64,000 nt of DNA from Bacteroides salyersiae WAL 10018 = DSM 18765 = JCM 12988 (GTDB lineage Bacteria; Bacteroidota; Bacteroidia; Bacteroidales; Bacteroidaceae). Location: positions 1,943,207 through 2,007,206 of the forward strand of contig NZ_KB905466.1 of the NCBI RefSeq assembly GCF_000381365.1. The letters are read 5' to 3'. This document shows, in pieces, positions 26,327 through 42,362 of this stretch. Position numbers and translations under genes: made by a program. How positions within the stretch are numbered: the stretch's first letter is position 1; each line of letters starts with the position of its first letter. Under the pieces are notes generated by a model. It did no database searches and was not told the origin of the DNA. It worked only from the letters and a program-made list of their open reading frames with translations.

Positions 26327-26404
26327 CGATATTATATAACCTAAACCGACAACTAACCAATTTTCATATAATTTTTTAGCGCAAATTTTTAATTGCATTA
26401 ATTC

Positions 26405-26444
26405 AGGAGCAAGAGGAAGAGACTTCCCACTTGCTCCTTTTTTT
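26405..26444 (+). terminator. Rho-independent terminator of sigma gene copy 1
   Basis: AGGAGCAAG (26405-26413) pairs with CTTGCTCCT (26430-26438), followed by a run of T. The equivalent at 56829-56869 follows copy 2. Confidence 0.85.
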
Positions 26445-26897
26445 AGTTTATCATCGTTCGGCTTCAAAAGCGCTGTAAGCCGAAGAGAAAAGTAATGCGT
26501 TCCCCAATCAGCCATAAAAATGACGAATTTTCAAAAAAATGCAGTATCTTTTTCAGATAAATCACATTCATCCGGCAAAACTGCTCGTACTCTGTATTTT
26601 TCCCGCCCCTTCGCCGGTTTCACCTTCCTTGCTCAAACATCCTATTCATAGGCTATTCAGGGCAAAGAAAAGTTTCTGTTCCCTATACTCCATGCAAATG
26701 TCTTCTAAGGGTCGTATATACATTCTATAAAACTCAGGCATACGGATATCCCCATACGCCAATCAGTGTCCGCAAACAAGTATTTTCGGACATAACATAC
26801 TCTACAACACATTTAACCATTTTTTACAGGGGCATTATCATCTTTTGCCAAATGTTTCCTTATATTTGAGCAACAAACATGGAAGATTATTCCAAAT
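26445..26897. other. Intergenic space before the IclR gene
   Basis: No gene is supported in these 453 bases. A short open frame at 26539-26730 has no recognisable features. TATATTTG at 26861-26868 fits the -7 element TAnnTTTG and lies 30 bases before the ATG of the IclR gene, so it is the likely promoter of the rightward cluster. A TTTG at 26844 is too close to be a normal -33 element. Confidence 0.4.
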
Positions 26898-27698
26898 ATG
26901 GAAAAAACAGAAGAAAACATGGAAAAAGTAGAAGAAAACTATAAAGTGCCGAACCTTGAAAAAGGGATTGCAGTCCTTGAATACCTGTCACTTTACACGA
27001 CGGGGAAAACATTGCAGGAAATCAAGTCGGAACTTGATATTTCGCAAACTACTGCTTATCGGATTCTAAATACTTTGGTCCGGTTAGGATACCTTATATA
27101 TAATGAAGATACCAAGCATTACAAATTATCCCGTAAACTATTGACACTTGGATTCAGATCGCTAAACGAACACAATCTATTGGAAATTGTCCTGCCGCAT
27201 CTGCGTAATTTGCGTGATCAGGTGAAAGAAACAGCCTGCTTCGGAGTATTAGGAGATCAAAAAGGCATATTTATCGAACAGGCGCAAGGGCACCATACGT
27301 TCCGGTTCGTACTTTCACCGGGAAAACCTTTCGAGCTGCATTGTTCGGCGCCCGGAAAAGCTATCATGGCCTATCTCCCTAATACTGTCCGCGATTATTA
27401 TCTGGCGCAGATGGAATTTACGCGCTACAACGCACGTACAATTACGACCCCGGAGGCTTACATGGAAGAGCTGGAGAAAGTACGCAGACAAGGCTATGCC
27501 ATGGACAACGAAGAAGAGCTGAGCGGAGTAGTCTGCGTCGGCACACCGATCTTTAATTATACCAGCTACCCGTGTGGTGCCATTTGGATTTCCGGTCCCA
27601 AAGACAGACTATCGAAAGAGGTAATCCGCCAATCCGTAGAATATATAAAAGATACGGCACAATGTATTTCAAGAGAGTTAGGATATAGTCAAATATAA
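26898..27698 (+). CDS. IclR family transcriptional regulator
   Basis: This 266-residue protein has an N-terminal winged helix-turn-helix (about residues 17-80: VPNLEKGIAVLEYLS, TLQEIKSELDISQTTAYRILNTL) and a C-terminal GAF-like effector domain (about 95-260, with FELHCSAPGKAIMAYL and GYAMDNEEELSGVVCVGTPIF). IclR regulators usually control catabolic operons by binding a small-molecule metabolite. The gene is 15 bp upstream of the propeller/cytochrome gene on the same strand, so it is probably the first gene of that operon and its regulator. A Glu/Lys-rich N-terminal extension precedes the HTH. The ligand is unknown. Confidence 0.92.
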   Translation: MEKTEENMEKVEENYKVPNLEKGIAVLEYLSLYTTGKTLQEIKSELDISQTTAYRILNTLVRLGYLIYNEDTKHYKLSRKLLTLGFRSLNEHNLLEIVLPHLRNLRDQVKETACFGVLGDQKGIFIEQAQGHHTFRFVLSPGKPFELHCSAPGKAIMAYLPNTVRDYYLAQMEFTRYNARTITTPEAYMEELEKVRRQGYAMDNEEELSGVVCVGTPIFNYTSYPCGAIWISGPKDRLSKEVIRQSVEYIKDTAQCISRELGYSQI

Positions 27699-27713
27699 GA
27701 AAAAATATATACT

Positions 27714-29489
27714 ATGAACACCCCCAAGCAAATATTGAAAAAGATAATCGTAGCTGCTTTTTTGTGCAGCCCCCTTTCGTTTGTCTTTGCAGGAAATCCT
27801 CCGCTTTTTCCTACAGATATCACCTTGAACGATAAAGGGGAAATTCTGATTACAGAAAAAGGCAGAAACCGCATCAGCATCTTCTCGCCGGATGGTAAAA
27901 CACTTCTGCGTACGATTCCGGTAGACGAATCTCCTACCGGTATTCTTCTGGATGCCGACAAGGCATATGTCACTACAAGTGCTGCCACCGGACATTTACA
28001 GATTATTTCTTTGGAAACCGGCAAGCAGGAAACCGCCATTGCAACAGGTTCCGGTGCCTGTTATCCGATATTCGGCCCGGACAAAAAGCACATATATGTA
28101 TGCAATCAATTCCAGAATACGGTTTCAGAGGTCGATCCGGCAAGCCACCAAGTTATCCGTTCCGTAAAAGTCTTGCGTGAGCCCAAATCAGCACTGTTCA
28201 GTAAAGACGGCGAGTACCTGTTCGTGACAAATTTTCTGCCGGCCCAACGGGCGGATGTCGACTATGTGGCTGCCTGTGTATCAGTAATCAGAATGAGCGA
28301 TTTCACCAAGGTAAAAGACATACAACTGGCCAATGGAAGCAATGCACTTCGCGGCATTTGCATGACTCCTGATGGTAAATATATTTATGTATCACATAAT
28401 CTCGGCCGTTTTGCTGTTCCGACTTCCCAATTGCAACAAGGATGGATGAATACCAGTGCTTTCAGTATCATAGATGTATCAAGACAAGAATTCATCGGAG
28501 CGGTTGTTGTTGACGAGCCGGAACGAGGAGCAGCAGGCATCTGGAGCATCGCCTGCAACGACGAAACACTATTCATCACCCACTCCGGAACCCATGAAAT
28601 CAGCGTTATCGATCATAAGGCAATGCTGGACAAGTTTCTGAATTATCCCAACAAATCGATGTTGGATTATGACCTGAGATTCCTGTACGGCTTGCGCAAG
28701 CGTATTCCATTGGAAGGAAACGGCCCCCGCAAAATGATCATGGAGAATGGTAAACTCTATATTCCCACTTATTTTGCCGACATCCTAAACATCGTAGACG
28801 CCCAAACTTGCGAAATAGCCACAGCCAATCTGAATCCGGACCGGGAAGAAAGTGCGGAAAATAAAGGAGAACGTTACTTCAACGATGCATCCCATTGTTT
28901 TCAAAATTGGCAGAGCTGCAACGGATGCCATCCCGGAGACGCCCGTACCGACGGTATGAACTGGGATTTAATGAACGACGGAGTCGGCAACTCCAAAAAC
29001 TGCAAGAGTCTGTTATTCAGTCATCCTACCCCTCCCAGCATGATATCCGGTATCCGTGAAACCGCCGAATGGGCTGTACGTGCCGGCTTCAAGTTTATCC
29101 AATTCTTCGATATCACCGAAGAAGACGCCGTTTGTGTAGATGCCTATCTGAAATCTCTGCGACCTGTTCCAAGCCCTTATCTGGTCGACGGCGAACTGTC
29201 CGACCTCGCCAAAGAGGGTCGAAAAATTTTTGAAAAACTGAACTGTACGGAATGCCATAGCGGCCCCTATTATACCGACCTGAAGATGCACCGTATCGGT
29301 GAAGACATCGAGTTTGAAAAAGGATGGGATACCCCTACTCTTCGTGAAGTATGGCGCACAGCACCCTATCTATTCGACGGCCGTGCCGCCACCATGGAAG
29401 AAGTGTTCGAAATACATAAACATGGAATTGACAAAAAAGTATCTAAAAAGGAAATCAAAGCACTGACAGAATACGTAAACTCATTATAA
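27714..29489 (+). CDS. Exported beta-propeller di-haem cytochrome c
   Basis: The 591-residue product has a Sec signal peptide (about residues 1-26, ending FVFAG). Residues about 30-390 form a YncE/NHL-like beta-propeller (LFPTDITLNDKGEILITEKG, GICMTPDGKYIYVSHN). Two c-type haem sites follow, at Cys402-Cys405-His406 (SCNGCH) and Cys511-Cys514-His515 (CTECH). The C-terminal part resembles the MauG/cytochrome c peroxidase di-haem fold (DTPTLREVWRTAPYLFDGR). It is therefore a periplasmic electron-transfer protein or peroxidase/oxidase acting on a ligand bound by the propeller. Haem attachment would depend on the ResB-CcsA protein in the same cluster. The reaction is not known. Confidence 0.85.
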   Translation: MNTPKQILKKIIVAAFLCSPLSFVFAGNPPLFPTDITLNDKGEILITEKGRNRISIFSPDGKTLLRTIPVDESPTGILLDADKAYVTTSAATGHLQIISLETGKQETAIATGSGACYPIFGPDKKHIYVCNQFQNTVSEVDPASHQVIRSVKVLREPKSALFSKDGEYLFVTNFLPAQRADVDYVAACVSVIRMSDFTKVKDIQLANGSNALRGICMTPDGKYIYVSHNLGRFAVPTSQLQQGWMNTSAFSIIDVSRQEFIGAVVVDEPERGAAGIWSIACNDETLFITHSGTHEISVIDHKAMLDKFLNYPNKSMLDYDLRFLYGLRKRIPLEGNGPRKMIMENGKLYIPTYFADILNIVDAQTCEIATANLNPDREESAENKGERYFNDASHCFQNWQSCNGCHPGDARTDGMNWDLMNDGVGNSKNCKSLLFSHPTPPSMISGIRETAEWAVRAGFKFIQFFDITEEDAVCVDAYLKSLRPVPSPYLVDGELSDLAKEGRKIFEKLNCTECHSGPYYTDLKMHRIGEDIEFEKGWDTPTLREVWRTAPYLFDGRAATMEEVFEIHKHGIDKKVSKKEIKALTEYVNSL

Positions 29490-29508
29490 ACCAAAACCAC
29501 TGGAAAAC

Positions 29509-30603
29509 ATGAACTATTGCGAAAAAATACGGTATAACATATATACCACCGAAGTAGCAGATTTTACAACGATGGCAGACACCTTATTGGCGCAATTACC
29601 GAAAGACGAGTCCATATTCAGACTGGTATTCTTCGGTACTCCGGCAAACAATGAAGAATATGTCACACGACGTAGCATCCTGTGGAATAAGATACAGCAA
29701 CGTTATGAAGATCGTCTGCCTGTAATGAGTTATGTATCACAACCGGCGTTGGACGGTGCCCTCACTTTGGAGGTACACAGCTACCGGGCGGATGAAAATG
29801 ACCACATCACTTATCATCCCAACAAAGGTTTTCCATATGTCACGCTGGAGAATGCAGACGGCCGTTTTCTTTTTGCCGGTGGTTTTCACAGCGACATACT
29901 GGATTTTAATATCCAACAACAGGCCGTTGAAATCTTCCGCCTGGCAAGCGAGGTTCTGCACAAAGAGAACTTCCCCATCGAAAATATCATCCGGCAATGG
30001 AACTATATCGAACAAATTACCAGTTTTGACGGTGCCGACCAGCATTATCAAATGTTCAACAACGTACGCAGCAATTTCTACAATCAGGCAGTATGGACGA
30101 ACGGTTATCCGGCAGCCACCGGAATCGGGACAAACTTAGGCGGTGTTCTGGTAGATATCGATGCCGCCGTATTCACACGCCCTGCCTGCTTTGCTACCCC
30201 GATCGACAACAAATTGCAGATTGCCGCCCATGCCTACTCGCCGCAAGTATTGGAAACCGCCCAACAACAAAAGACGACACCCAAGTTCGAACGTGCCAAA
30301 AGTATGACGTTCGACGACAGAAAACTTATCTACGTATCGGGTACAGCCGCTATCCGGGGAGAAGAGAGCCTGACCGGAGTCGGTCTCGAACGGCAGCTTC
30401 ACATCACAATGGAGAATATAGCCCAACTGACCGGAGATGCACAACTGAAAATGCTGCGCGTCTATCTGAAAAACAAATCCGACTATAAGGAAGCGTACGA
30501 AGTATTAAGCAGTTATCAACTGGCCATTCCTGTCTCTTATATGTGTGCAGATGTATGTAGAGATGAGTTATTAATCGAAATAGAAGGGATTGCCATAAAA
30601 TAA
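29509..30603 (+). CDS. RidA/YjgF-superfamily protein, FkbO/Hyg5 (chorismatase)-like
   Basis: This 364-residue protein has no signal peptide and so is probably cytoplasmic. The block NGYPAATGIGTNLGG near residue 205, the preceding RQWNYIEQI and DQHYQMFNNVR segments, and the C-terminal RVYLKNKSDY are the pattern of chorismatase-like proteins. These carry a RidA-fold C-terminal domain and a related N-terminal domain. Chorismatases hydrolyse chorismate; RidA proteins deaminate reactive enamines. The catalytic residues of true chorismatases could not be checked, so the activity is open. It lies 19 bp after the cytochrome gene and 58 bp before the cupin gene, within one probable operon. Confidence 0.55.
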   Translation: MNYCEKIRYNIYTTEVADFTTMADTLLAQLPKDESIFRLVFFGTPANNEEYVTRRSILWNKIQQRYEDRLPVMSYVSQPALDGALTLEVHSYRADENDHITYHPNKGFPYVTLENADGRFLFAGGFHSDILDFNIQQQAVEIFRLASEVLHKENFPIENIIRQWNYIEQITSFDGADQHYQMFNNVRSNFYNQAVWTNGYPAATGIGTNLGGVLVDIDAAVFTRPACFATPIDNKLQIAAHAYSPQVLETAQQQKTTPKFERAKSMTFDDRKLIYVSGTAAIRGEESLTGVGLERQLHITMENIAQLTGDAQLKMLRVYLKNKSDYKEAYEVLSSYQLAIPVSYMCADVCRDELLIEIEGIAIK

Positions 30604-30661
30604 AACCCAATTCCTCCAGATTACACCACAGCAAAATCACTAACCTAATAAATAAACAAAA

Positions 30662-31399
30662 ATGAAGAGAAAGCTAACAAAATCAGTAGCCTTAGGAGTA
30701 GTTATACTCGCTATGGCTGCATGTACCGGCAAAACATCCAATTCAGAAACCACCTGTTGCGAAAACGGAACATGCACCGAACAATGCAAAAACGAATGTA
30801 ATAACAACAACTGTAAAAACAAAAAAGAAATGACTTATTCCAAAAAGTACACAAATGCCGATTTCTACAAAGACGGCAAATTCCAACAAAATGTTGCCAT
30901 GGAGGCAATGAAAGACATGTTCGCATTCTATGATGTTCCTTTCACTAAATTGATGGCGACCGATATGTGGGTCACTGATTTCGGATTGGGAGACTTTGAA
31001 AATGTAGGTATGGGAGGCATCTTTTGGGTGAACAATGAAGAACAAAGATATTTTGCACACGCCATTTATCTGCTCCCCGGCCAAATGATCCCCGAGCACG
31101 CGCACGTTGCCACCAAGTTCCCCGCCAAGCACGAATCATGGATGGTTGAAAAAGGATGGGCTTACAACTTCTCGGAAATTGGAGAAGAAACTCCGAATGC
31201 ACCCGCCATACCGGCTACTCACGGCCCTATCAAAAGCAAGAATTTCGTAATACAGCAAGTAGGTGAAGTATTGCCGTTGAAACAACTGACTACTTTCCAC
31301 TTCCTGATGGCCGGCCCCGAAGGAGCAATCGTTTCCGAATGGGCTACCTATCATGACAATGCCGGATTGCGTTTCACCAATGCCAAAGCCGCGTTATAA
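30662..31399 (+). CDS. Cupin-like lipoprotein with Cys-rich linker
   Basis: This 245-residue lipoprotein (MKRKLTKSVALGVVILAMAAC, Cys21) has a short linker containing six cysteines, from CCENGTC to the Cys after NNNN, at residues about 31-50. A cupin fold follows, with YLLPGQMIPEHAHV and a later FHFLMAGPEGAIVSEWATY. Cupins of this look include sugar isomerases (D-lyxose isomerase-like) and metal-dependent lyases. The PEHAH histidines are probable metal ligands. The Cys-rich linker may bind metal or form disulfides outside the cytoplasm. It is cotranscribed with two exported cytochromes by spacing (58 and 55 bp). No activity is assigned. Confidence 0.7.
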   Translation: MKRKLTKSVALGVVILAMAACTGKTSNSETTCCENGTCTEQCKNECNNNNCKNKKEMTYSKKYTNADFYKDGKFQQNVAMEAMKDMFAFYDVPFTKLMATDMWVTDFGLGDFENVGMGGIFWVNNEEQRYFAHAIYLLPGQMIPEHAHVATKFPAKHESWMVEKGWAYNFSEIGEETPNAPAIPATHGPIKSKNFVIQQVGEVLPLKQLTTFHFLMAGPEGAIVSEWATYHDNAGLRFTNAKAAL

Positions 31400-31454
31400 A
31401 TATCCAAAGCTGCATTATAAAACAAGAAAATAGCAACACCTTATTATCAACTCC

Positions 31455-34400
31455 ATGAATAAATCTTTGCTAATAGCTCTTGCATTCTTATCGGCTTCCG
31501 CCCTGGCCTTTGCCGGGCCGAAGCCCAAGAAAGCGGAGACGTGGATCGACGCTTCAGTGAAAGCGAAATCCGAATTACGCTCGCAATTGCAAAAGGCGGG
31601 AATGCCCGTCATATCCAAATGGATGAAAGCGAAAGATAAAGCCGAACCTTTCGTAGTAGACTTGAAAAACTGTAACCAACTCATACTCATTACCTCCGGT
31701 GGTCCCGACGGTACCGGGTATGACCATGCCGTATGGGGAAACGCTCGCTTTATTACAGCCGACGGTTCTTCCGTCTGGTTGGATCAGATACCGTTTGAAT
31801 ACGGTGTAGCCGGTTGGGACAAACCCAGAACCAACATAAATGCCAATGGCAAACCGATCCGGATTGCAGGCAAACCTTACGAACACGGAATGTTCTGCCA
31901 TGCCAACGGCACACTTATCTATCCGGTCAAAAGCGAATATGTACGTTTCGAAGCAGAAGTAGGAATCGACGATGCCTCAAATACCGGCAGTGTATTTTTT
32001 CATGCATTGAACGTACTGCCTACGGCTGCTGCCAAACAGTTATCCGAGAAATATCCGGACCAGATAGGAATGCTGAACAGCCAAATGGGAGAACTGGATA
32101 CTTGGTTAGTCACTGTTGATGCGTCTATTGAAAAACAGGTAGTAGAAGGTATGGCCAACAAGCTGAAAGACAGTGCTTACTTCAAAGACCTGATCCGGCA
32201 GGTAGCAGTAGAAAAAGACATAGACACACAGATACGTAAATACCTCGAATTATTTGAGAAGATACAAAATGTCTACGAGGTACAGAGCGAACTGGAATGG
32301 CTCAACATAGAAGCCATCAAACTGGCTTTTGCCGACATGAAAAAACAACAGGGGTACGATGCCGCAAAGTACGAACCTCTATTCAATGAACTGCTGAGCC
32401 TTTCTAAAAAAGGGTTTAACGCCATTTATCAAAACAACGCACAGGCGTTGGCAGATGCCCGCAAGGCATTAGAGAACAAACAGGCCATCCTGCTCGGCAA
32501 TCCTCTGTTGGATGGTGACAAAATTGTAGCTACCCGTTTCAAGTTAGGTACACGTGCCCGCACGGCCATGGCACCGGATTTAGGTACGCAATCCAATAAC
32601 TGGAGCAATCAGGAGTCTGCCCGCCGTAGCGGCTTCGACGCGGAAATTGTCGAATTATCCAATTTGCGCGGTGACATCCAGATGCACCGGGTCTATAAAC
32701 CGAAAAACACTTCATCCATTGCCGACCTTAAAATGCACTGGGACGGTGACCGGGTAATGTTTACCGCAACCATGCCGGACAACCGCTGGAACATACATGA
32801 GGTAAAACTCGATGGAACCGGTTACAAAACATTAGTCGAAAACAAAGAACCGGACCTGGAATTCTATGACGGTACTTATCTGCCCGACGGTCGTCTGATT
32901 GCCATCAGCAACATTGGTTACCAAGGAGTTCCCTGCGTCAGTGGTTCCGACCCGGTAGGTAACATGGTTCTGTACAATCCCCAAAATCAGGATATGCGCC
33001 GCATCACATTTGACCAAGATGCCAACTGGAATCCGGTTGTTATGAATAATGGACGTGTAATGTATACACGCTGGGAATATACCGACCTGATGCACTACTA
33101 CTCCCGTTTCGTGATGCACATGAATCCGGACGGCACAGAACAGAAAGCCCTCTTCGGAAGCGGCTCCGCCTTCCCGAACAGCACATTCGACATCCAGCCT
33201 CTTCCCGGTCATGCATCGGCTTTCGTAGGTATCATTTCCGGTCACCACGGCATTGCCCGCTCCGGCCGCCTGATACTGTTCGATCCGACCAAAGCACGTA
33301 AAGGTGCGGCAGGTATGTTGCAAGAGATTCCGTATCGTAACCGTCCGATCGTAGAGATCATAAAAGACGAACTGGTAAACGGCGTATGGCCGCAGTTCAT
33401 CAAACCGACTCCGTTGGACGATAAATACTACTTGGTAGCCGCCAAACTGAATCCACAGGATTTATGGGGCATCTATTTGGTAGATGTGTTCGACAATGTG
33501 ACTTGCCTGATGAAACAGGAAGGTGAAGGCTTTATCAGCCCGATCATCGTACGTAAAAATGTTACTCCGCCCGCCATTCCGGATCGTGTGAAACTGAATG
33601 AAAAGGAAGCAACCGTATTTATCCAGGACATTTACGAAGGAGAAGGCCTGCGTGACGTACCTCGCGGAACCGTGAAAGAACTCCGTCTGCATGCCTACGA
33701 ATACGCCTATCTGAAAACCGTATCCGACCACAACTGGCACGGGATTCAAAGCGGATGGGATATCAAGCGCCAGTTGGGAACCGTGCCCGTGGAAGAAGAC
33801 GGTTCGGTGATTTTCAAGATACCGGCCAATACGCCTATATCCATACAACCGGTCGACAAAGACGGTGCCGCCATCCAATGGATGCGTAGCTGGCTGACCG
33901 GACAACCAGGTGAGATCGTATCCTGTATCGGATGCCACGAAGACCAGAACCAAATCCCCGTACCCAAACGCGTGATTGCTTCTCAACGTGCCGCTCATTC
34001 CATCAAAGCACCCGAAGGTGGCGTTCGCTCGTTCACTTTCGACTTGGAAGTACAACCGATCCTCGACCGTGCCTGTATCGCCTGCCACAACGGTGAAAAA
34101 GCATTCGACCTTCGTGCCGGAAAGAAAGATGAACACGGCTACGGCCCTTCTTATCTGAATCTGCACCCGTATGTGCACCGCCAAGGCCCGGAAGCCGACA
34201 TGGCTGTTTTGCAACCGTACGAATATCATGCAAACACCAGTGAACTGATCCGTATCCTTAAAAAAGGACATGCCAACGTAGAACTGACCGATAAAGAGTG
34301 GCGGACGTTGTACAATTGGATTGATTATAATGCTCCGGACAAGGGCTATTTCAATGCCAACAAGATTACCGATTTCCCCTACCAAGGTTACGACCAGATT

Positions 34401-35447
34401 GAACGCCGTACAGAGCTTACCAACAAATATGCCAATGGCATGGGAGTAGACTGGAAGAAGGAAATTGCAGACTATGCGGCTTATCTGAAGGGCAAGGGAG
34501 AGATAACTCCTGTCATGCCGGAAGCTCCTGCACCTGTGAAAGAAAAGAATATAAAGGTGAAAAACTGGCCTTTCGATGCAGATGCAATCAGAGCCATGCT
34601 GGCCGATGAAAAAGAGACCCGCAAAGAGGTGACATTGGCTCCGGGCATCCAAATCACATTTGTACGTATTCCCGCAGGAGAATTCCCGATGGGTAGCTGG
34701 AACGGCGCCGATGACAACCGTCCTGTGTCTAAAGTAAAAATCGCCAAAGGATTCTGGATGGGTGAAGTGGAAATTACCAATGAACAATACAATGTCATCT
34801 TCCCCGATCATGACAGCCGGTATGTAGATCAATTATGGAAAGACCACGTACACTTCGGTTACCCGGCCAATGAGCCGAAACAACCGGTAATCCGTGTCAG
34901 CTACAATGATGCAATGGAGTACTGTAAACAGCTGAGCGAGAAGACCGGTCTGAACATCACACTGCCGACAGAGGCACAATGGGAATGGGCTTGCCGCGCC
35001 GGAAGCGACTCGGATTTCTGGTATGGTAATTCCAATACCGATTTCGGCAAACTGGAAAATCTGGCGGATGAAAGTTGTAACCAGATGGCCGTAAGCGGCA
35101 TTGACCCGCAGCCGATGTCGAAAAACTCACATTGGTATAAGTATTACTCTTATCTGCCTAAAGAAGAGAGTGTGAATGATGGAGCCATGAACCAGGTCGA
35201 TTCCAAGAATTATCAGGCAAACCCCTTCGGTCTGTACAGCATGCATGGAAATATCGCCGAGTGGACACGTTCGGACTACCGTCCTTACCCTTATACCGAA
35301 AAGGCGAAAACACCTTCCGAGTTTAAGGTAGTACGGGGCGGTTCGTACATAGAGCGTCCCAAATTCGCGACTTCTTATGTCCGTAAAGCCTACTATCCGC
35401 ATCAACGGGTGTTCAATGTAGGGTTCCGTGTAATCATAGAAGACTAA
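31455..35447 (+). CDS. Multidomain exported protein: NPCBM, HzsA-like propeller, two haem c sites, SUMF1 domain
   Basis: At 1330 residues this is the largest gene of the cluster. A signal peptide (ends LAFAG) is followed by an NPCBM-like sugar-binding domain (about 60-185: GGPDGTGYDHAVWGNARF, GIDDASNTGSV). A TolB/HzsA-like beta-propeller spans about 370-800. CxxCH haem sites are at Cys824-Cys827-His828 and Cys874-Cys877-His878. The C-terminus (about 1060-1330) is a formylglycine-generating/SUMF1-type domain (IPAGEFPMGSW, LPTEAQWEWACRAG, NPFGLYSMHGNIAEW, VVRGGSY). The middle resembles hydrazine synthase alpha-related proteins, which use haem to handle small substrates; anammox chemistry is not implied. 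The neighbouring ResB-CcsA gene supports real haem attachment. Substrate unknown. Confidence 0.82.
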   Translation: MNKSLLIALAFLSASALAFAGPKPKKAETWIDASVKAKSELRSQLQKAGMPVISKWMKAKDKAEPFVVDLKNCNQLILITSGGPDGTGYDHAVWGNARFITADGSSVWLDQIPFEYGVAGWDKPRTNINANGKPIRIAGKPYEHGMFCHANGTLIYPVKSEYVRFEAEVGIDDASNTGSVFFHALNVLPTAAAKQLSEKYPDQIGMLNSQMGELDTWLVTVDASIEKQVVEGMANKLKDSAYFKDLIRQVAVEKDIDTQIRKYLELFEKIQNVYEVQSELEWLNIEAIKLAFADMKKQQGYDAAKYEPLFNELLSLSKKGFNAIYQNNAQALADARKALENKQAILLGNPLLDGDKIVATRFKLGTRARTAMAPDLGTQSNNWSNQESARRSGFDAEIVELSNLRGDIQMHRVYKPKNTSSIADLKMHWDGDRVMFTATMPDNRWNIHEVKLDGTGYKTLVENKEPDLEFYDGTYLPDGRLIAISNIGYQGVPCVSGSDPVGNMVLYNPQNQDMRRITFDQDANWNPVVMNNGRVMYTRWEYTDLMHYYSRFVMHMNPDGTEQKALFGSGSAFPNSTFDIQPLPGHASAFVGIISGHHGIARSGRLILFDPTKARKGAAGMLQEIPYRNRPIVEIIKDELVNGVWPQFIKPTPLDDKYYLVAAKLNPQDLWGIYLVDVFDNVTCLMKQEGEGFISPIIVRKNVTPPAIPDRVKLNEKEATVFIQDIYEGEGLRDVPRGTVKELRLHAYEYAYLKTVSDHNWHGIQSGWDIKRQLGTVPVEEDGSVIFKIPANTPISIQPVDKDGAAIQWMRSWLTGQPGEIVSCIGCHEDQNQIPVPKRVIASQRAAHSIKAPEGGVRSFTFDLEVQPILDRACIACHNGEKAFDLRAGKKDEHGYGPSYLNLHPYVHRQGPEADMAVLQPYEYHANTSELIRILKKGHANVELTDKEWRTLYNWIDYNAPDKGYFNANKITDFPYQGYDQIERRTELTNKYANGMGVDWKKEIADYAAYLKGKGEITPVMPEAPAPVKEKNIKVKNWPFDADAIRAMLADEKETRKEVTLAPGIQITFVRIPAGEFPMGSWNGADDNRPVSKVKIAKGFWMGEVEITNEQYNVIFPDHDSRYVDQLWKDHVHFGYPANEPKQPVIRVSYNDAMEYCKQLSEKTGLNITLPTEAQWEWACRAGSDSDFWYGNSNTDFGKLENLADESCNQMAVSGIDPQPMSKNSHWYKYYSYLPKEESVNDGAMNQVDSKNYQANPFGLYSMHGNIAEWTRSDYRPYPYTEKAKTPSEFKVVRGGSYIERPKFATSYVRKAYYPHQRVFNVGFRVIIED

Positions 35448-35470
35448 CCGTTGCAATACCAAACCAAACC

Positions 35471-35504
35471 TATGTACCCATATGCCAATTGGCATGTGGG
35501 TACA
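35471..35504. terminator. Near-perfect 34-bp palindrome
   Basis: ATGTACCCATATGCCAA is followed at once by its reverse complement with one difference, which is a G-U pair in RNA. It lies in the 92-bp space between the HzsA-like gene and the cytochrome maturation gene. It may be an attenuator or partial terminator within the cluster. Confidence 0.6.
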
Positions 35505-35539
35505 TTAAAACTCTTATTTATTATTCAATTGACAACCCA

Positions 35540-38020
35540 ATGAAAGTAACCTTTAATAAATTACTCTCTTCTTATGTAACAACGGTCGTTTTGTTACTTA
35601 TCTATGCTGTTGCCCTGGCTGCCGCTACTTTCATTGAGAAATATTACGGTACGCCGACAGCCAAAACAATGGTCTACTATTCTCCCCTATTCTTCCTGCT
35701 TCAATTGCTGTTAGTCATCAACTTTCTGGCAATCGTCATAAAACGTTCCTATCTCAAAAGCAGGAAATGGGGTATGCTGACTGTTCATTTTGCTTTTATC
35801 ATCATCCTGCTCGGTGCGCTTATTTCCTTTTTATTCAGCGAAGAAGGTATCCTGCATCTTCGTGAAGGAGAAACAAGTAACCAAATCGCCGTCCGGACCT
35901 CCGACGACAGGACCGGTATCCATATCCTCCCTTTTTCAGTGGAGCTAAAGAAATTTACACTGACCCGTTACCCCGGTTCATCCAGCCCTTCTTCCTATGA
36001 AAGTGAAGTCATTGTACACGTAGACGGCAAATCCCGTCCGGAACGAATCTTCATGAATAACGTGTTGGATGTGAAAGGTTACCGGTTCTTCCAAGCATCC
36101 TATGATCCGGATGAACAAGGAACAATCCTTTCCGTCAACCGTGACGTGGCAGGACGCAACATTACTTATACCGGCTATCTTCTGCTGGTCATCGGGCTGC
36201 TCCTTTGCTTTACCGGCAAGAATTCCCGTTTCATGCATCTGAGTCGCCGGCTGAAAGAACTTCACAATGCCGGAAATATCATCGCATGTTTACTAATGAT
36301 GATTCTCGCATTCCCCGTAAACAGCCAAGCAAACGATGGAAGGCGAGAGACAAGAGATGGAAGATGGGAGATTGTACAAAAATATATGGTAAATCCGGGG
36401 CATGCCGAAGTGTTCGGTTCCTTACCGATGCAATCGAATAGCGGGCGAGTGATGCCAATCAATACTTTTTCGTCTCAAGTACTGCGGAAACTGCATAAGT
36501 CGGAAAAGATCGGCGGTCTCAACTCCGATCAGTTCCTGATCAGTTTGTTGATAATGCCGGATATATGGATGCAAATTCCCTTCATCACCGTTTCCAATCC
36601 GGAGTTGACAAGTTATTATAACCTGTCTGCCAAACAATGTGCATACATACAGTTCTTTGACAACGGCCACTACAAACTGCAAGAAAAGTTAGAAGAGGCT
36701 TATAATAAAATGCCGAACCAACGCACGCGTTTCGATAAAGACCTGATGAAACTGGATGAGCAGATCAATATCTTTCACCAACTCATCAACCGCCAAATGT
36801 TGAACCTCTTTCCATTGGAGAATGACCCCAATCATAAGTGGTATGCTCCGGGAGATGACTTGTCCGCTTTTGCCGGAAAAGATTCCATGTTCGTATCCCG
36901 CATCATGGACTGGTATCTGGAAGAAGTGCAGGAATCGCTGAGAAGTAATGATTGGACAAAGGCTGATGAAGTGGCCGGCATGATCAATACCTATCAGCAA
37001 GCCAAGAACAAGACACTCGATATCAGTCCTAAAAAGATACAATCAGAATTAAAATACAACCGGATGGATGTGTTCAGGGCTTGCAAAATCGGCTATCTGG
37101 TTCTGGGCGGTTTATTGCTAATCTTCACATTCATTGCCCAGTTCCAGTTCCGGGAAAAACGTTGGACAAAAACACTGATCTGGATATTGGGTATTCTGGT
37201 TCTGATCGTTTTTCATTATCACATGTATGGCATGGGTATGCGGTGGTACATAGGCGGATACGCTCCTTGGAGTAACTCTTATGAGACTATGGTATATGTG
37301 GCTTGGGCTACCGTCCTTGCCGGTTTGTTGTTTGTACGCCGCAATCCCCTGACTCTTGCACTGGCCACTCTATTCGGCGGGATCATTCTTTTTGTATCCG
37401 GTCTGAACTGGATGGACCCGGAAATCAGTACGCTGGTTCCTGTCCTTAAATCTCCGTGGTTGATGTTTCATGTGGCCATCATCGTCGCTGCTTACGGTTT
37501 CTTCGGTATCAGTTGCCTAATGGGCCTGACGAATATGATAATGATTGTTTTTGCCGGAAAAGAGGATAACAATCCGTTGATCAACCGTATCAAGGGGCTC
37601 AGTATCATCAATGAAATGTCACTACTGGTAGGGCTTGCCCTGATGGCCATCGGTACCTTTTTAGGAGCAGTCTGGGCCAATGAATCCTGGGGACGTTATT
37701 GGGGATGGGATCCTAAAGAGACTTGGGCATTAATTACAATGGTTATCTATGCCATCGTCACCCACCTCCATCTGATTAAGCGCTGTAACTCCCTCTGGTT
37801 ATTCAATGTCACATCGGTCATCGCCTTTTCTTCCGTCCTGATGACTTTTTTGGGAGTTAACTATTTCTTGAGCGGTATGCATTCTTACGGCCAAAATGAA
37901 CATGTAAACAACATACTTATATATCTGTACTTAGCTTTCGGAATCATCATTGTTCTGGCTATGCTGTCTTATAGAAGCTGGAAAAAGAATCCGGAAAGGA
38001 GGAGGAAGTATGATAAGTAG
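35540..38020 (+). CDS. Fused ResB-CcsA cytochrome c maturation protein
   Basis: This is the system II haem-to-cytochrome c ligase, in which ResB (CcsB) and CcsA are joined in one membrane protein of 826 residues. The ATG at 35540 (MKVTFNKLLSS) is chosen over an upstream non-ATG codon. The N-terminal part has transmembrane segments (LLIYAVALAAATFIEKYYG) and a periplasmic ResB-like domain. The C-terminal half has several more helices and the tryptophan-rich haem-binding motif WGRYWGWDPKETWA (Trp721, Trp723, Asp724). Its place directly after two multi-haem c-type proteins suggests it matures them. The stop codon lies inside the first unit of an AGTAGTCAAG-type repeat. Confidence 0.92.
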   Translation: MKVTFNKLLSSYVTTVVLLLIYAVALAAATFIEKYYGTPTAKTMVYYSPLFFLLQLLLVINFLAIVIKRSYLKSRKWGMLTVHFAFIIILLGALISFLFSEEGILHLREGETSNQIAVRTSDDRTGIHILPFSVELKKFTLTRYPGSSSPSSYESEVIVHVDGKSRPERIFMNNVLDVKGYRFFQASYDPDEQGTILSVNRDVAGRNITYTGYLLLVIGLLLCFTGKNSRFMHLSRRLKELHNAGNIIACLLMMILAFPVNSQANDGRRETRDGRWEIVQKYMVNPGHAEVFGSLPMQSNSGRVMPINTFSSQVLRKLHKSEKIGGLNSDQFLISLLIMPDIWMQIPFITVSNPELTSYYNLSAKQCAYIQFFDNGHYKLQEKLEEAYNKMPNQRTRFDKDLMKLDEQINIFHQLINRQMLNLFPLENDPNHKWYAPGDDLSAFAGKDSMFVSRIMDWYLEEVQESLRSNDWTKADEVAGMINTYQQAKNKTLDISPKKIQSELKYNRMDVFRACKIGYLVLGGLLLIFTFIAQFQFREKRWTKTLIWILGILVLIVFHYHMYGMGMRWYIGGYAPWSNSYETMVYVAWATVLAGLLFVRRNPLTLALATLFGGIILFVSGLNWMDPEISTLVPVLKSPWLMFHVAIIVAAYGFFGISCLMGLTNMIMIVFAGKEDNNPLINRIKGLSIINEMSLLVGLALMAIGTFLGAVWANESWGRYWGWDPKETWALITMVIYAIVTHLHLIKRCNSLWLFNVTSVIAFSSVLMTFLGVNYFLSGMHSYGQNEHVNNILIYLYLAFGIIIVLAMLSYRSWKKNPERRRKYDK

Positions 38021-38264
38021 TCAAGTAGTTAAGTAGTAAGTAGTGAGTAGAAAATAGTATAGCAAATAATAAAGTAGTAAGTGAAATGACAGTCAAGTAA
38101 GTAATAAATAATGAGTAGTTAGGGAGTAGACAGTAAGCAGTAAAAAGTAGATAGAAGACAATCAAATCGTAGAATAGAATTCCCAGACACGGAATCTATC
38201 CTACTTGACTACTTAACTACTTGACTACTTGACTACTTAACTACTAAATCACTTAACTACTAAA
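38013..38264. repeat. AGTAGTCAAGTAGTTAAG-type repeat block
   Basis: Left units AAGTAGTCAAGTAGTTAAG and degenerate versions begin at the stop codon of the ResB-CcsA gene. Their complements CTACTTGACTACTTAACT end just before the VOC gene. A long branched hairpin can form. It probably ends the upstream transcript and separates it from the dhaK group. Confidence 0.7.
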
Positions 38265-38306
38265 TCCAATCACTTAGAAAAAATAACCATTTAAAACAAA
38301 TCAATT

Positions 38307-38621
38307 ATGAGAACATTCAACCATGTAGGTATCGTCACAACCGAACAAAAAGAAAATGCTTTCTTTAACGAAGGTCTCAGCGTATGGCTGACAGACTACA
38401 GTAAAAGTCCGAACAGAATCGAGTTTTTAAAATTCGAAGAAGGCAGTTGTATGCCCGAACTCGTACAGAAACAAGGACATATTGCTTATACAGTTCCTTC
38501 ACTTGAAGAAGAATTGAAAGGGAAAAAGGTGATCTTCGGTCCGGCTGTTTGCGATGAACATCTCACGATTGCTTTCATTGAAGAAGAAGGCATTGCGATC
38601 GAAATAATGGAAATCAAATAA
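38307..38621 (+). CDS. VOC (glyoxalase/epimerase-like) small protein
   Basis: This 104-residue protein has the single-module VOC pattern: MRTFNHVGIVT at the start, a central HIAYTVPSLEEELKGKKVIFGP, and the C-terminal LTIAFIEEEGIAIEIMEI. VOC modules bind a metal and act in pairs as isomerases, lyases or dioxygenases. The His in NHVGI and the Glu in AIEIME are plausible metal ligands. It is shorter than methylmalonyl-CoA epimerase (about 130 residues). It lies 29 bp upstream of dhaK, so a role with the kinase and the LsrF-like enzyme is likely, for example isomerising a keto-sugar. This is inference. Confidence 0.65.
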   Translation: MRTFNHVGIVTTEQKENAFFNEGLSVWLTDYSKSPNRIEFLKFEEGSCMPELVQKQGHIAYTVPSLEEELKGKKVIFGPAVCDEHLTIAFIEEEGIAIEIMEIK

Positions 38622-38650
38622 GAACTAATCAAAAAAAGGAGGACAATACC

Positions 38651-39667
38651 ATGTCAGACATCAAAACAAAATTCATCAACGATCCGGAACAAATAACTCC
38701 CGAATTGTTGGAAGGCTACACATTAGCCTATGCCGATCAGGTAAAACTCGCAGGTGAAAACATCGTAGTACGCACCCACCCGAAAGATGAAAGCAAAGTA
38801 GCTATCGTCACATTAGGCGGCTCCGGCCACGAACCGGCGTTAAGCGGTTTTGTAGGCGAAGGTATGCTGGACTGCTCGGTAGTTGGAGATATCTTCGCAG
38901 CTCCCGGCGCACAACGTCTGTTTCAGGCCTTGCAGTTAATGAAACGTGAAGCCGGTATCCTGTTAGTCGTACTGAATCATTCCGGTGATATCATGAGTGC
39001 CAACATGGCATGCCAGTTAGCAGAACGGGCGGGTATCAAAGTGAAACAAATCGTCACCCATGACGATATCAGCGCAGGAATCGATGCAAATACCGATGAT
39101 CGCCGTGGTTTGGCCGGTTGTGTCCCTTTATATAAAATAGTAGGAGCCGCAGCCGAAGAAGGTAAATCTTTGGACGAACTTATCGAAATCGGCGAACGCT
39201 ACAACAATCAAGTAGCTACCCTTGCCGTAGCAATGCATTCCTGCACACATCCGCAAAATGGGGCAACCATTACCGACCTGCCCGAAGGTATTATGGAAAT
39301 CGGTATGGGGCAGCATGGCGAAGGCGGTGGCGGCCAAAAACCGCTTGTATCCGCCGATGATACGGCAGCCGAAATGGTAGACCTGCTCTGTCAGCAGCTC
39401 AAACCCAAAGCAGGAGACAAGATGATGCTCATCATCAATGGTGTAGGCGCTACAACTCACATGGAACTGAATATTATCTTCCGTAAAGCCTATAAAGAGT
39501 TGGAAGCCCGCGGACTGCAAGTCGTAGTCAGCCGCATACAGGAAATACTAACTGTACAGGAGCAAGCCGGTTTCCAGATGATCATGGCTATCCTCGATGA
39601 AGATCATATCGATTATTTGAAGAACAAACGTTCCGATGCACCTTACTGGACTACCATCGGAAAATAA
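38651..39667 (+). CDS. dhaK: Dihydroxyacetone kinase-like subunit DhaK
   Basis: This 338-residue substrate-binding subunit of a dihydroxyacetone-type kinase has the N-terminal TLGGSGHEPALSGFVGEGMLD motif (quoted in part: GGSGHEPALSGFVGEGML), HSGDIMSANMACQLAE, and His222 in GMGQHGEGG. In this family that histidine holds the ketone substrate as a hemiaminal. An unusually strong ribosome site for Bacteroides (AGGAGG, 38637-38642) precedes the ATG. DhaL follows 13 bp later. No PTS-type DhaM is present, so whether ATP or a phospho-protein donates the phosphate is open. Relatives phosphorylate dihydroxyacetone, erythrulose or other short ketoses. Confidence 0.88.
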   Translation: MSDIKTKFINDPEQITPELLEGYTLAYADQVKLAGENIVVRTHPKDESKVAIVTLGGSGHEPALSGFVGEGMLDCSVVGDIFAAPGAQRLFQALQLMKREAGILLVVLNHSGDIMSANMACQLAERAGIKVKQIVTHDDISAGIDANTDDRRGLAGCVPLYKIVGAAAEEGKSLDELIEIGERYNNQVATLAVAMHSCTHPQNGATITDLPEGIMEIGMGQHGEGGGGQKPLVSADDTAAEMVDLLCQQLKPKAGDKMMLIINGVGATTHMELNIIFRKAYKELEARGLQVVVSRIQEILTVQEQAGFQMIMAILDEDHIDYLKNKRSDAPYWTTIGK

Positions 39668-39680
39668 AACAACAAAGGAA

Positions 39681-40304
39681 ATGACACAACTGACCATTGA
39701 TAATTTTAAAACAATGCTTGCCACTGCTTTATCCAACATTAAAGCACGCGAGGATGAATTTTCCAAACTCGATGCCGTCATTGGTGACGGTGATCATGGA
39801 CAAGCCATCGTAACAGCTATGAGTGCAATCGTTGCCACGGCCGAAAAAGGGAAAGAGTTCAAAACGATGCTGAACGACATGGGATTCGATGTCATGATGC
39901 AAGTAAGCGGCTCGACCAGCACGTTATTAGGGGCTTTCTTCTTAGGGATGAGCGACCATGCAAGTGGTACCGAGTTAGATACCAATGCCGTAAAAGTGAT
40001 GTTTGCCGGAGGCCTTGCCAATGTGCAGAAGCAAACCAAAGCCCAGAAAGGTGACAAAACAATGATGGATGCTCTGATACCCGCTGTCGAAGCTATTCAG
40101 AATTGTCCTTCCGAAGATATCAAGGACGTCTTGAACGCAGGAGCCGAAGCAGCATTGGCCGGTGCCCAGTCCACCATCGATCTGAAAGCAAATTTCGGAC
40201 GTGCCCGTAATTATGGAGAACGTTCCATCGGTTACATGGATAGCGGTGCCGCTTCCTGGAGTTGTATGTTCGCTTCCTTTGCAGAAGCAGCTAAAGAAAA
40301 GTAA
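39681..40304 (+). CDS. dhaL: Dihydroxyacetone kinase-like subunit DhaL
   Basis: This 207-residue nucleotide-binding subunit has the three magnesium-holding aspartates of DhaL, Asp31, Asp36 and Asp38 in LDAVIGDGDHGQ, and the phosphate-binding loop VSGSTSTLLGAF. The ATG at 39681, preceded by AAAGGAA, is taken rather than an earlier in-frame non-ATG codon inside the end of dhaK. It forms one kinase with the DhaK encoded immediately upstream. Together with the LsrF-type gene downstream it suggests phosphorylation followed by carbon-carbon cleavage or thiolysis. Confidence 0.88.
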   Translation: MTQLTIDNFKTMLATALSNIKAREDEFSKLDAVIGDGDHGQAIVTAMSAIVATAEKGKEFKTMLNDMGFDVMMQVSGSTSTLLGAFFLGMSDHASGTELDTNAVKVMFAGGLANVQKQTKAQKGDKTMMDALIPAVEAIQNCPSEDIKDVLNAGAEAALAGAQSTIDLKANFGRARNYGERSIGYMDSGAASWSCMFASFAEAAKEK

Positions 40305-40309
40305 TTTAT

Positions 40310-40507
40310 TTAGTAGTTAAGTAGTCAAGTAGTTAAGTAGTCAAATAGTAAGTAGTAGATAGTCAAGTATAAAAAAGCAAGTAATAAAATTGCATGTAGC
40401 AAGCAACAGTAGTAGATAATTAAATCATTAAGTATAAACTTCAGATGCAAATCTATTCTACTTAACTACTTACTACTTGACTACTTACTACTTAACTACT
40501 TACTACT
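40310..40507. repeat. AGTAGTTAAGTAGTCAAG-type repeat block
   Basis: TTTAGTAGTTAAGTAGTCAAG and related units after dhaL are matched by CTACTTAACTACTTACTACT units before the lsrF-like gene. They give a long imperfect hairpin of the same family as at 21.8 and 38.1 kb. Confidence 0.7.
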
Positions 40508-40536: not shown

Positions 40537-41409
40537 ATGGCAGATTTAGACGATTTAAGAGAAGGCTCAAACTTCGGTTTGAATATCGCCGCTCAACAAC
40601 AACATTTTCATGTGAAAGGTGCAGAAAATGCATCATGGGGTATGAAAGACCGTTTATCACGCATCTTCAACCCGAAAACAGGTAAATCCGTTATGTTGGC
40701 TTGCGACCACGGATTCATCATGGGCCCTACTTCCGGTCTGGAACGTATCGACCTGACAATTGTTCCGTTAATGGAATATGCAGACTGTCTGATGTGTACC
40801 CGAGGTATCTTGCAATCCGTTATCCCGGCTAACACAAAGACACCTATCTGTCTGCGTTCTGATGCGGGCACCTCTATTCTGACTGATTTGAACGACAATG
40901 TATTAATCGATATCGAAGATGCTGTCCGCATGAATGTATCGGCTATGGCTGTCATGCTGGCCATCGGTGATGAGGCCCACGAAGCAAAAACAGTAGCTAA
41001 CCTGTACAAAGCAGTCGACAAAGCAAGCCGTTACAATATTCCCGTAATGGGAGTAACGGCAGTAGGGAAGCAGATGGCGCGTGATGCCCGTTATTTCGGA
41101 CTGGCTTCACGTATCTGTGCCGAAAACGGTGCTAATATCGTAAAGACCTACTATTGCGACGGTTTTGAAAAAGTAGCAGCCGCTTGTCCGGTTCCGGTCG
41201 TTATTGCAGGTGGTAAGAAACTTCCGGAGAAAGAAGCTCTCGAACTTTGCTATCACGCTATTAACGATGGCGCTGCCGGTGTAGACATGGGACGCAACGT
41301 ATTCCAAAGCGAATCTCCTGCTGCCATGATTCAAGCAGTACATGCCGTGGTACACGACGGACTTACTCCGGAACAAGGTTTTGAAATGTTCCAGGATTTA
41401 TCTAAATAA
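40537..41409 (+). CDS. lsrF: LsrF-type class I aldolase/thiolase
   Basis: This 290-residue TIM-barrel Schiff-base enzyme is closely patterned on LsrF, the thiolase that moves an acetyl group from the phosphorylated AI-2 breakdown product 3-hydroxy-5-phosphonooxypentane-2,4-dione to CoA. Lys203 in IVKTYYCDGF is at the same number as the catalytic lysine of E. coli LsrF. Other matches are MLACDHGFIMGPTSGLE and AGGKKLPEKEAL. No LsrK, LsrB or LsrACD is nearby, so AI-2 may not be the substrate. The DhaKL kinase upstream could supply a phosphorylated keto-compound instead. A repeat-rich space of 232 bp separates it from dhaL. Confidence 0.85.
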   Translation: MADLDDLREGSNFGLNIAAQQQHFHVKGAENASWGMKDRLSRIFNPKTGKSVMLACDHGFIMGPTSGLERIDLTIVPLMEYADCLMCTRGILQSVIPANTKTPICLRSDAGTSILTDLNDNVLIDIEDAVRMNVSAMAVMLAIGDEAHEAKTVANLYKAVDKASRYNIPVMGVTAVGKQMARDARYFGLASRICAENGANIVKTYYCDGFEKVAAACPVPVVIAGGKKLPEKEALELCYHAINDGAAGVDMGRNVFQSESPAAMIQAVHAVVHDGLTPEQGFEMFQDLSK

Positions 41410-41471: not shown

Positions 41472-42362
41472 ATGATGAAGAAAATATCTATATTTTTATA
41501 TTTCATCTTTTTTCTTATTTCCAACACTTCCGGACAGAATAAAACGGAAAAACTACTGTTAGGTGGTTCCGGTTGGAATAAGATTGTCATCATAGACAAA
41601 GAATCGAAGCAAATAGAGTGGGAACATCCCCTACAAGAAGGATGGGAGTGCAATTCAGTAGCCGCTACACCGGACGGCAACATCTTGTTCTCCTACGGCA
41701 AGGGTGCCAAAACGATCAACCGCAACCATCAGGAAATATGGAATATCACCGTACCGGACGGATGTGAGATGCAAACAGCCCGTGTACTATCCGACGGCAA
41801 TTATCTGTTGGCATGGACAGGACATCCGGCTGTGATCATGGAAGTAAGCCCGAAAGGTAAAATTCTATCGCGTACAGAATACGAAACAGGGATCGACCAT
41901 CCCCACTCCCAGTTCCGCCAATTGAATAAAAATCCACGTGGAAACTATCTTATCCCGCTTATATCCACTTCCGAAGTGCGGGAAATATCTCCGGACGGTA
42001 AACTGATCAGCACTTTAAAAACAGAAGGTACTCCTTTCACAACCTTGGAATCAGTTAACGGAAATTACTGGATAGCCTGCGGTGACGGACACGCATTGGT
42101 AGAAGTCAATCCGGATAGCCGTCAAGTCATCCGCCGGTATAGCGAGAACGATATTAAAGGAGTCCGTCTCTTCTTCACTGCCGGCTTATGCAAAGGCTCC
42201 GATGGAAGCCTTTACATCTGCAATTGGCAAGGGCACAGTCATGATGCCAACGAAGCAAACAGTCCGCAGCTTTTCGAAATAAACCATAAAGGAGAAATTG
42301 TATGGAGTTTGAATGATAACCGGACATTCGGGATGATATCCACTGTCAGTATCATAAACTGA
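41472..42362 (+). CDS. Exported PQQ-like beta-propeller protein
   Basis: This 296-residue protein has a signal peptide (MMKKISIFLYFIFFLISNTSG) and repeated propeller blades (LLLGGSGWNKIVIIDKES, SVAATPDGNILFSYGKG, ARVLSDGNYLLAWTGH, ESVNGNYWIACGDGHALVEV). Such small propellers bind ligands or partners in the periplasm; no catalytic residues are evident. It starts 62 bp after the lsrF-like gene on the same strand, across a terminator-like hairpin. It is the third propeller protein encoded in this cluster, so it may share a substrate with the two cytochromes. Confidence 0.7.
   Translation: MMKKISIFLYFIFFLISNTSGQNKTEKLLLGGSGWNKIVIIDKESKQIEWEHPLQEGWECNSVAATPDGNILFSYGKGAKTINRNHQEIWNITVPDGCEMQTARVLSDGNYLLAWTGHPAVIMEVSPKGKILSRTEYETGIDHPHSQFRQLNKNPRGNYLIPLISTSEVREISPDGKLISTLKTEGTPFTTLESVNGNYWIACGDGHALVEVNPDSRQVIRRYSENDIKGVRLFFTAGLCKGSDGSLYICNWQGHSHDANEANSPQLFEINHKGEIVWSLNDNRTFGMISTVSIIN

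Follow-up and report, generated by a model that had tools for sequence, protein, structure and literature searches.

A gut Bacteroidales branch of hydrazine synthase-like proteins encoded in a catabolic-looking operon

The genome of Bacteroides salyersiae WAL 10018 contains, within the 64,000-nucleotide stretch analysed here (contig NZ_KB905466.1, positions 1,943,207 to 2,007,206; designated the window), a gene for a relative of the alpha subunit of anammox hydrazine synthase (HZS). This alpha gene is a real open reading frame (ORF) with an ATG start (31455..35447, + strand) and encodes 1330 residues. A second gene, 27714..29489 (+), encodes a 591-residue fusion of HZS beta- and gamma-like parts, and relatives of all three HZS subunits are encoded together in the cluster. 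The pair is a well-conserved gut Bacteroidales branch of HZS-like complexes, new in the NPCBM and SUMF1 domains fused to alpha and in its catabolic-looking operon. We put it at an even chance that alpha and beta-gamma form a c-type haem complex in the periplasm, a homologue of anammox HZS that acts as an oxidoreductase for a carbohydrate-like compound and is not a hydrazine synthase.

The alpha protein and its beta-gamma partner

The alpha protein is composed of a signal peptide, an NPCBM domain, a helical part, a propeller, an HZS_alpha middle domain with haem motif I, a haem II region and a C-terminal SUMF1 domain. The NPCBM domain, of carbohydrate-binding type (residues 106-183, 31770..32003 (+), Pfam E 8.7e-26), the HZS_alpha middle domain (residues 738-829, 33666..33941 (+), E 6.3e-37, 126 bits against a cut-off of 26.6) and the SUMF1 domain, which has the fold of the formylglycine-generating enzyme (FGE; residues 1069-1327, 34659..35435 (+), Pfam FGE-sulfatase E 9.7e-43), all matched far over their cut-offs. 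Haem motif I is CIGCH (residues 824-828, 33924..33938 (+)), followed by an invariant E-x-Q-N without Tyr, and haem motif II is CIACH (residues 874-878, 34074..34088 (+)).

Relatives of alpha were found at 50 loci, mostly in Bacteroides and Parabacteroides, among 57 pattern-matched bacterial genome stretches (65-90% identity in the best segment); Parabacteroides goldsteinii (L039) and Bacteroides clarus (L003) are among the species with the cluster. Thirty-one of these were aligned with the window copy, and the other 19 were excluded as near-duplicates or as truncated or split ORFs. Both CxxCH motifs (C824/C827/H828 and C874/C877/H878) were invariant in all 32 sequences, at exactly the positions proposed in the initial annotation of this gene. 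Mean column identity was highest in the HZS_alpha middle domain (92%) and the haem II region (89%), which suggests a constrained redox site, followed by the propeller (85%) and SUMF1 (83%), and was lower in the NPCBM domain (67%) and the helical part (56%). The NPCBM domain was present in 25 of the 32 rows, and its absence from the other seven indicated that it is an accessory part. When alpha was compared with four homologues, dS was saturated in 25 of 28 comparisons, and the remaining three gave dN/dS ratios of 0.02 to 0.05. The alpha ORF was interrupted in L050, L051 and L034 (longest ORF 559, 548 and 1010 residues, respectively); draft-assembly errors are likely in L051, because several other L051 genes are also short.

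A structure model of alpha residues 192-1330 had a mean predicted local distance difference test score (pLDDT) of 61.8, with the haem parts and SUMF1 poorly predicted. The best PDB fold match of this model was HZS alpha (5C2V chain A; Foldseek E 3.9e-18, against 6.2e-8 for the next protein, with a TM-score of 0.51 on the target). Alignment by VIA-align agreed (Z 29.2 over 449 residues at 3.2 A, with TolB next at 23.8), and two profile searches matched the same chain at E 1.7e-6 and 5.5e-5, the match being carried by the haem I stretch. The initial annotation had described an exported redox protein akin to HZS alpha in which an NPCBM-like module, an HzsA-like propeller, a di-haem region and a SUMF1 domain are fused. 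The Pfam matches and the match to 5C2V chain A confirmed this architecture, and kinship to HZS alpha and export are supported, the signal peptide having been judged by eye.

The beta-gamma gene is located three genes upstream of alpha, directly after the gene for an IclR-family regulator (26898..27698 (+)), with a chorismatase-like gene and a cupin gene between the pair. It encodes a beta-propeller followed by a MauG/CCP-type di-haem domain (CCP, cytochrome c peroxidase) with haem motifs CNGCH (gamma I, residues 402-406, 28917..28931 (+)) and CTECH (gamma II, residues 511-515, 29244..29258 (+)). A single-sequence PDB search matched 5C2V gamma at E 1.2e-17 and beta at E 2.5e-14, and a profile search matched beta at E 3e-23 and gamma at E 7.9e-19. 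The AlphaFold2 model (mean pLDDT 72.6), good in the propeller and poor in the haem part, had 5c2v_B as its best PDB match in Foldseek (E 1.2e-21, next 1l0q at 4.4e-18) and in VIA-align (Z 39.7 over 330 residues at 2.9 A, next 32.8). The gamma half is assigned by sequence. The alignments behind the two models held fairly close sequences, 32 for alpha and 26 for beta-gamma; in the latter, the window copy stands with 25 others, chosen from 43 loci at which beta-gamma was matched. The C-terminal half also shares its di-haem domain with the MauG, MbnH and bacterial CCP families, which it matches weakly, under curated cut-offs, but unlike these proteins it is joined to a propeller of the HZS-beta type and has alpha as a partner. 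The presence of beta-gamma in the same operon indicates an HZS-like alpha/beta-gamma pair and not a self-contained enzyme. The initial annotation, in which alpha was suggested to be a self-contained oxidase, was right in what it observed but understated, as it omitted the beta-gamma gene and the rest of the operon.

Comparison with hydrazine synthase and SUMF1 proteins

The Kuenenia HZS (5C2V) likewise has an alpha subunit with two c-haem motifs, a beta propeller and a di-haem gamma subunit, and in anammox clusters beta-gamma likewise lies upstream of alpha, according to Hagglund 2025 (PMC12758564). Unlike the Kuenenia enzyme, the window pair has beta and gamma fused, two genes between the fusion and alpha, NPCBM and SUMF1 domains on alpha, and a metabolic operon around it, and it lacks both the Tyr after alpha haem motif I and gamma-Cys165. 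Tyr591 is the proximal residue at HZS alpha haem I, as given in Versantvoort 2025 (PMC12607021) and Hagglund 2025 (PMC12758564). No counterpart was found within 14 residues after alpha haem motif I in any of the 32 rows, and Asn832 is invariant. Gamma-Cys165, which forms a third covalent bond to haem gamma I in HZS, aligned to Val455 (invariant, 26/26) in the profile alignment and fell in a gap in the pairwise alignment; C430 is another invariant Cys in beta-gamma. At the position of gamma-His144, which belongs to the active haem of HZS and is a Trp in MauG/CCP and in HZS-like clades I-III, the pairwise alignment placed Ile444 and the profile alignment an invariant His437. Haem alpha II of HZS is bis-His (His772 distal), and H904, H908 and H939 are invariant in alpha, in a region where the model is poor. 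The NCBIfam HZS equivalog models scored far under their cut-offs, at 37.9 of 800 bits for alpha and 99.2 of 1250 bits for the beta-gamma fusion (E 1.7e-28). A true hydrazine synthase was rejected on the missing proximal Tyr, the missing gamma-Cys165 and these scores, and the complex is probably not a hydrazine maker.

HZS was once thought to have no relatives outside anammox bacteria, and distant pairs were found in a few phyla in 2025, with no function given (Hagglund 2025, PMC12758564). There, pairs of an HZS-like alpha and a fused beta-gamma are assigned to clades I-IV (Planctomycetota, Syntrophobacter, Paludibaculum, Opitutus); the clade pairs lack Tyr591 and were judged unable to make hydrazine, clades I-III have alpha upstream of beta-gamma with FG-GAP/CRTAC1 or ABC genes nearby, and the beta-gamma tree is the one place where Bacteroidota appear. 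The window pair resembles clades I-IV in its fused beta-gamma colocated with alpha (36 of 38 loci, see below) and in the missing Tyr591. The NPCBM/SUMF1 fusion and the cupin/IclR/LsrF operon are not described in the portions of that paper covered here, though its Fig. S4 may include some of these genes. Neither did we find the operon described in the open-access literature, as far as available, on HZS in Bacteroides, Parabacteroides or Bacteroidota, chorismatase in Bacteroides, or LsrF with dihydroxyacetone kinase. Gut Bacteroides and Parabacteroides are culturable, and their operon, which is conserved and brings its own regulator and recognisable partner enzymes, is a tractable place to study HZS-like complexes that do not make hydrazine. 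It bears on the kind of enzyme from which anammox HZS evolved, and would mean that gut commensals have a further redox pathway with c-type haem.

The C-terminal 260 residues of alpha share their fold with PvdO, FGE and EgtB. PvdO and FGE were the nearest solved relatives, and ToxD, GldK/PorK and TvpA (2Y3C) also matched; to our knowledge, TvpA and GldK/PorK are not enzymes. The initial annotation had pointed to FGE or EgtB-type chemistry in this part. The positions of the FGE cysteine pair hold E/D (1300) and A/S (1305) in 32 of 32 sequences, and a Pfam scan of alpha showed no DinB-type domain, in which we take the EgtB iron site to lie, at E <= 0.01. With the Cys336/Cys341 copper pair and a DinB-type domain both absent, the oxidase reading of SUMF1 was rejected. 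Absent SUMF1 sites and conserved haem motifs together indicate that a redox role for alpha stands, while a SUMF1-centred one does not. The simplest reading of the SUMF1 part is a binding role, though it may have a PvdO-like catalytic one. The earlier interpretation was thus borne out for the architecture, the di-haem region and the kinship to HZS alpha, which was also the best match in the fold search, and failed for the self-contained oxidase and for FGE/EgtB chemistry.

The operon and its conservation

Between beta-gamma and alpha lie genes for an FkbO/Hyg5-type chorismatase-like protein of the RidA fold (29509..30603 (+), 364 residues) and a D-lyxose/D-mannose-isomerase-like cupin (30662..31399 (+), 245 residues) with a lipoprotein-type leader. 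Downstream of alpha are genes for a CcsBA-type cytochrome c biogenesis protein (ResB + CcsA; 35489..38020 (+)), with a second CcsA-type gene elsewhere in this genome; a conserved VOC-like protein (38307..38621 (+), 104 residues), which had no Pfam or NCBIfam match at E <= 0.001 and whose family was judged by eye from invariant H6, E39, H58 and E99; the dihydroxyacetone kinase-type proteins DhaK (38651..39667 (+)) and DhaL (39636..40304 (+), true start probably inside the ORF); an LsrF-type aldolase/thiolase (40537..41409 (+); NF006081, 462.9 bits against a cut-off of 297, and a PDB match); and an exported propeller protein (41472..42362 (+), PF22701 Mala_s_1-like). The presumed catalytic positions of the cupin, LsrF, DhaK and VOC proteins are invariant, including LsrF K203 in 31 sequences, which we take to be the catalytic Lys. 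The chorismatase-like protein matched Hyg5 and FkbO. A C-terminal E.EG pattern picked 31 of its 33 copies, each of which has the VCR of Hyg5 just before that pattern; we presume that both sets of residues have the roles they have in chorismatases. The operon shares an LsrF-type aldolase with the autoinducer-2 (AI-2) breakdown route of E. coli, and it has DhaK/DhaL kinase genes. It differs from the E. coli Lsr route in that LsrF is paired with DhaKL, VOC and cupin, and LsrK and LsrG matches were not seen among the eleven recurrent families in the domain-library scans made. Promoter and terminator scans scored below the shuffle mean, and there was no Rfam match in 25500-44700 and no tRNA in the window.

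The cupin residues H146, H148, E158 and H213 were invariant in 45 sequences and aligned with the same residues of 7nzo (E 2.5e-11) and 2y0o (E 1.1e-9); these are presumably the metal ligands (the HxH, E, H site of D-lyxose isomerase). Thirty-four of the 45 cupins have a leader, with a lipobox-like pattern in 32 of them, and the other 11 are leaderless forms of 189-190 residues. The leader is often Cys-rich; that of the window copy places 7 Cys ahead of the cupin part. Among the 34 long cupins, 33 have a Met, after a variable A-rich stretch, at the position of the first residue of the short forms (32 in the same column and one off by one residue). In the window this Met corresponds to an internal ATG at 30830..30832 (+), a possible second start. 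This conserved Met suggests dual localisation from one gene, with two products and a cupin substrate on both sides of the inner membrane.

Conservation of the cluster was assessed by searching the 50 loci with the window genes (tblastn), and presence was counted in the 38 whose sequence extends 5 kb or more before alpha and 6.5 kb or more beyond it, 12 being excluded for short flanks. Alpha was present in all 38, beta-gamma in 36, the cupin in 35, IclR in 32, CcsBA in 30, the chorismatase-like gene and each of VOC, DhaK, DhaL and LsrF in 25, and the exported propeller in 22. The VOC, DhaK, DhaL and LsrF genes behaved as an all-or-none cassette. L084 and L087 have another gene order and keep all of these genes except IclR, which was not seen in either, both stretches ending at beta-gamma. 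Clustering of ORFs from 55 loci, which include two duplicates (L083 = L033 and L085 = L049), gave no family beyond these eleven in more than six loci. DAHP synthase genes stand beside the cluster at L084:10984-11742 and L035:19361-20107, which fits a link to chorismate. Downstream of the propeller gene in L023, L025, L027, L034, L039 and L040 (Parabacteroides/Tannerellaceae) is a sodium:solute symporter, a candidate transporter, identified by a family scan on the L039 copy.

Of 301 genomes of the family, 8 had an HZS_alpha match, which exceeded the cut-off in 7. Among the 22 same-genus genomes listed, 3 had such a match, counting the genome of the window itself. Co-occurrence was assessed in 25 genomes, 6 with alpha and 19 of the same genus without it (a weak match in G039, 20.6 bits and under the cut-off, was excluded); these genomes are related and overlap with the locus set, so the counts are not independent of those in the 38 loci. 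Both beta-gamma and cupin were found in all 6 genomes with alpha and in none of the 19 without it, and the three genes go together throughout this sample. LsrF was found in 3 of 6 and 0 of 19, respectively, and in 3 of 201 sampled genomes of the family, all three alpha-bearing. A link to nitrite ammonification was rejected, as NrfA was present in 1 of 6 alpha-bearing versus 5 of 19 alpha-lacking genomes; one NrfA gene lies elsewhere in the window's own genome. Across the wider Bacteroidota, 14 of 296 genomes had an HZS_alpha match, 11 of them over the cut-off and the window's own included. Six loci from this group (L092-L097) have alpha but no beta-gamma nearby by tblastn at 1e-4, and of the five alpha proteins listed from them, four have one CxxCH motif and that of L092 has two. 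G290, to which L083 and L085 also belong, has four alpha genes and one beta-gamma match, and its alpha at L086 adjoins an exported propeller gene.

Proposed function and alternatives

Proteins with c-type haem are exported, and CcsBA attaches haem; the CcsBA of the operon probably attaches the four c haems of the pair. We propose that alpha, with its NPCBM and SUMF1 modules, works together with beta-gamma in an HZS-like assembly, in which the gamma and alpha haems would be two linked redox sites. The complex would oxidise or reduce a carbohydrate-like compound in the periplasm, with NPCBM and SUMF1 helping to bind it. D-lyxose-isomerase-like cupins interconvert aldoses and ketoses, and the cupin would act on the substrate of the complex or on what is formed from it, in the periplasm and possibly in the cytosol as well. 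DhaKL phosphorylates dihydroxyacetone-like ketones, and LsrF with CoA converts phospho-3-hydroxypentane-2,4-dione (P-HPD) to dihydroxyacetone phosphate (DHAP) and acetyl-CoA. Where the cassette is present, VOC, DhaKL and LsrF might phosphorylate the product and then split it into DHAP and acetyl-CoA, most simply by way of a P-HPD-like 2,4-dione; on paper, an oxidised 5-deoxypentose isomerised at C1/C2 would be the unphosphorylated LsrF substrate. A more specific version, to which we give little credence, is that gut Bacteroidales adapted the HZS scaffold into a new class of haem enzyme that oxidises sugars in the periplasm, followed by an AI-2-type breakdown route. The complex would then oxidise a deoxypentose- or AI-2-like compound, the cupin, made from one gene as a lipoprotein and a cytosolic enzyme, would isomerise the product to 3,5-dihydroxypentane-2,4-dione, DhaKL would phosphorylate its dihydroxyacetone-like end, and LsrF would cleave it to DHAP and acetyl-CoA without LsrK or LsrG.

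Several observations weigh against a carbohydrate oxidoreductase built on the HZS plan, for which we infer both the substrate and the direction of the reaction. HZS alpha was not listed at E <= 0.001 in a single-sequence PDB search with alpha, and the colinear haem II stretch matched 5c2v_A weakly (i-Evalue 6.9). HZS gamma was not among the listed fold matches of the beta-gamma model, whose haem part is poorly modelled. An archaeal S-layer YVTN propeller, 1l0q, outscored HZS by sequence (6.3e-22 single, 2.2e-32 profile), as expected for a repeat family; it covers the propeller only. Alpha paralogues without beta-gamma nearby occur in L033, L049 and L086. One of the six beta-gamma matches counted above, that of G107 (G107:C37:38665-40320), contains two in-frame stops, although the rest of its cluster is complete. 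Thirteen of the 38 loci lack the cassette, and three of the six genomes with alpha lack LsrF, which indicates that the cassette is not needed for the core reaction. No electron acceptor was identified; NrfA does not track with alpha. The chorismatase-like gene and the DAHP synthase genes beside the L035 and L084 clusters hint at aromatic biosynthesis.

This last hint leads to an unlikely alternative, a biosynthetic cluster in which an aromatic or quinone-like molecule would be made from chorismate and DHAP-derived units (LsrF/DhaKL) and finally oxidised by the haem complex with a PvdO-like SUMF1. The match of the chorismatase-like protein to Hyg5 and FkbO with its E.EG and VCR residues, the adjoining DAHP synthase genes, and the rank of PvdO as top SUMF1 relative all favour it, but the chorismatase-like gene is missing from 13 of 38 loci, no further family recurs in more than six of 55 loci, and an IclR regulator and LsrF fit breakdown better. 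The weak MauG, MbnH and CCP matches of the gamma half would suit a peroxidase-type or protein-modifying system, in which beta-gamma would either remove H2O2 or act as MauG/MbnH do, with alpha or some other protein of the periplasm as its target, and the metabolic genes would be bystanders. We consider this quite unlikely, given that the cupin accompanies alpha in 6 of 6 genomes and that the metabolic cassette recurs and is kept through rearrangement.

It is improbable, moreover, that alpha is mainly a binding or structural protein anchored to glycans by NPCBM and SUMF1, with haems that only transfer electrons. A SUMF1 part without FGE cysteines and the alpha paralogues without a nearby beta-gamma agree with such a role, but the HZS_alpha middle domain and haem region are the most conserved parts of the protein, well above NPCBM. 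That a gut commensal should have a true hydrazine synthase or other enzyme of the nitrogen cycle, working on NO, hydroxylamine or hydrazine, is highly improbable. The relationship to all three HZS subunits and the invariant His437, placed on gamma-His144 in one of two alignments, speak for it, but the absent Tyr, Val455 or a gap in place of gamma-Cys165, the low NCBIfam scores, the lack of NrfA co-occurrence and operon partners that are a sugar-isomerase-like cupin, a kinase and a thiolase all speak against it.

Elsewhere in the window, a glycan-type locus on the minus strand (45741-54601 (-)) encodes a SusC/SusD-type pair and a GH85-domain protein. GH2 and GH38 glycosidases are encoded at 12449-17973 (+), the GH38 one with an F5/8 type C domain.

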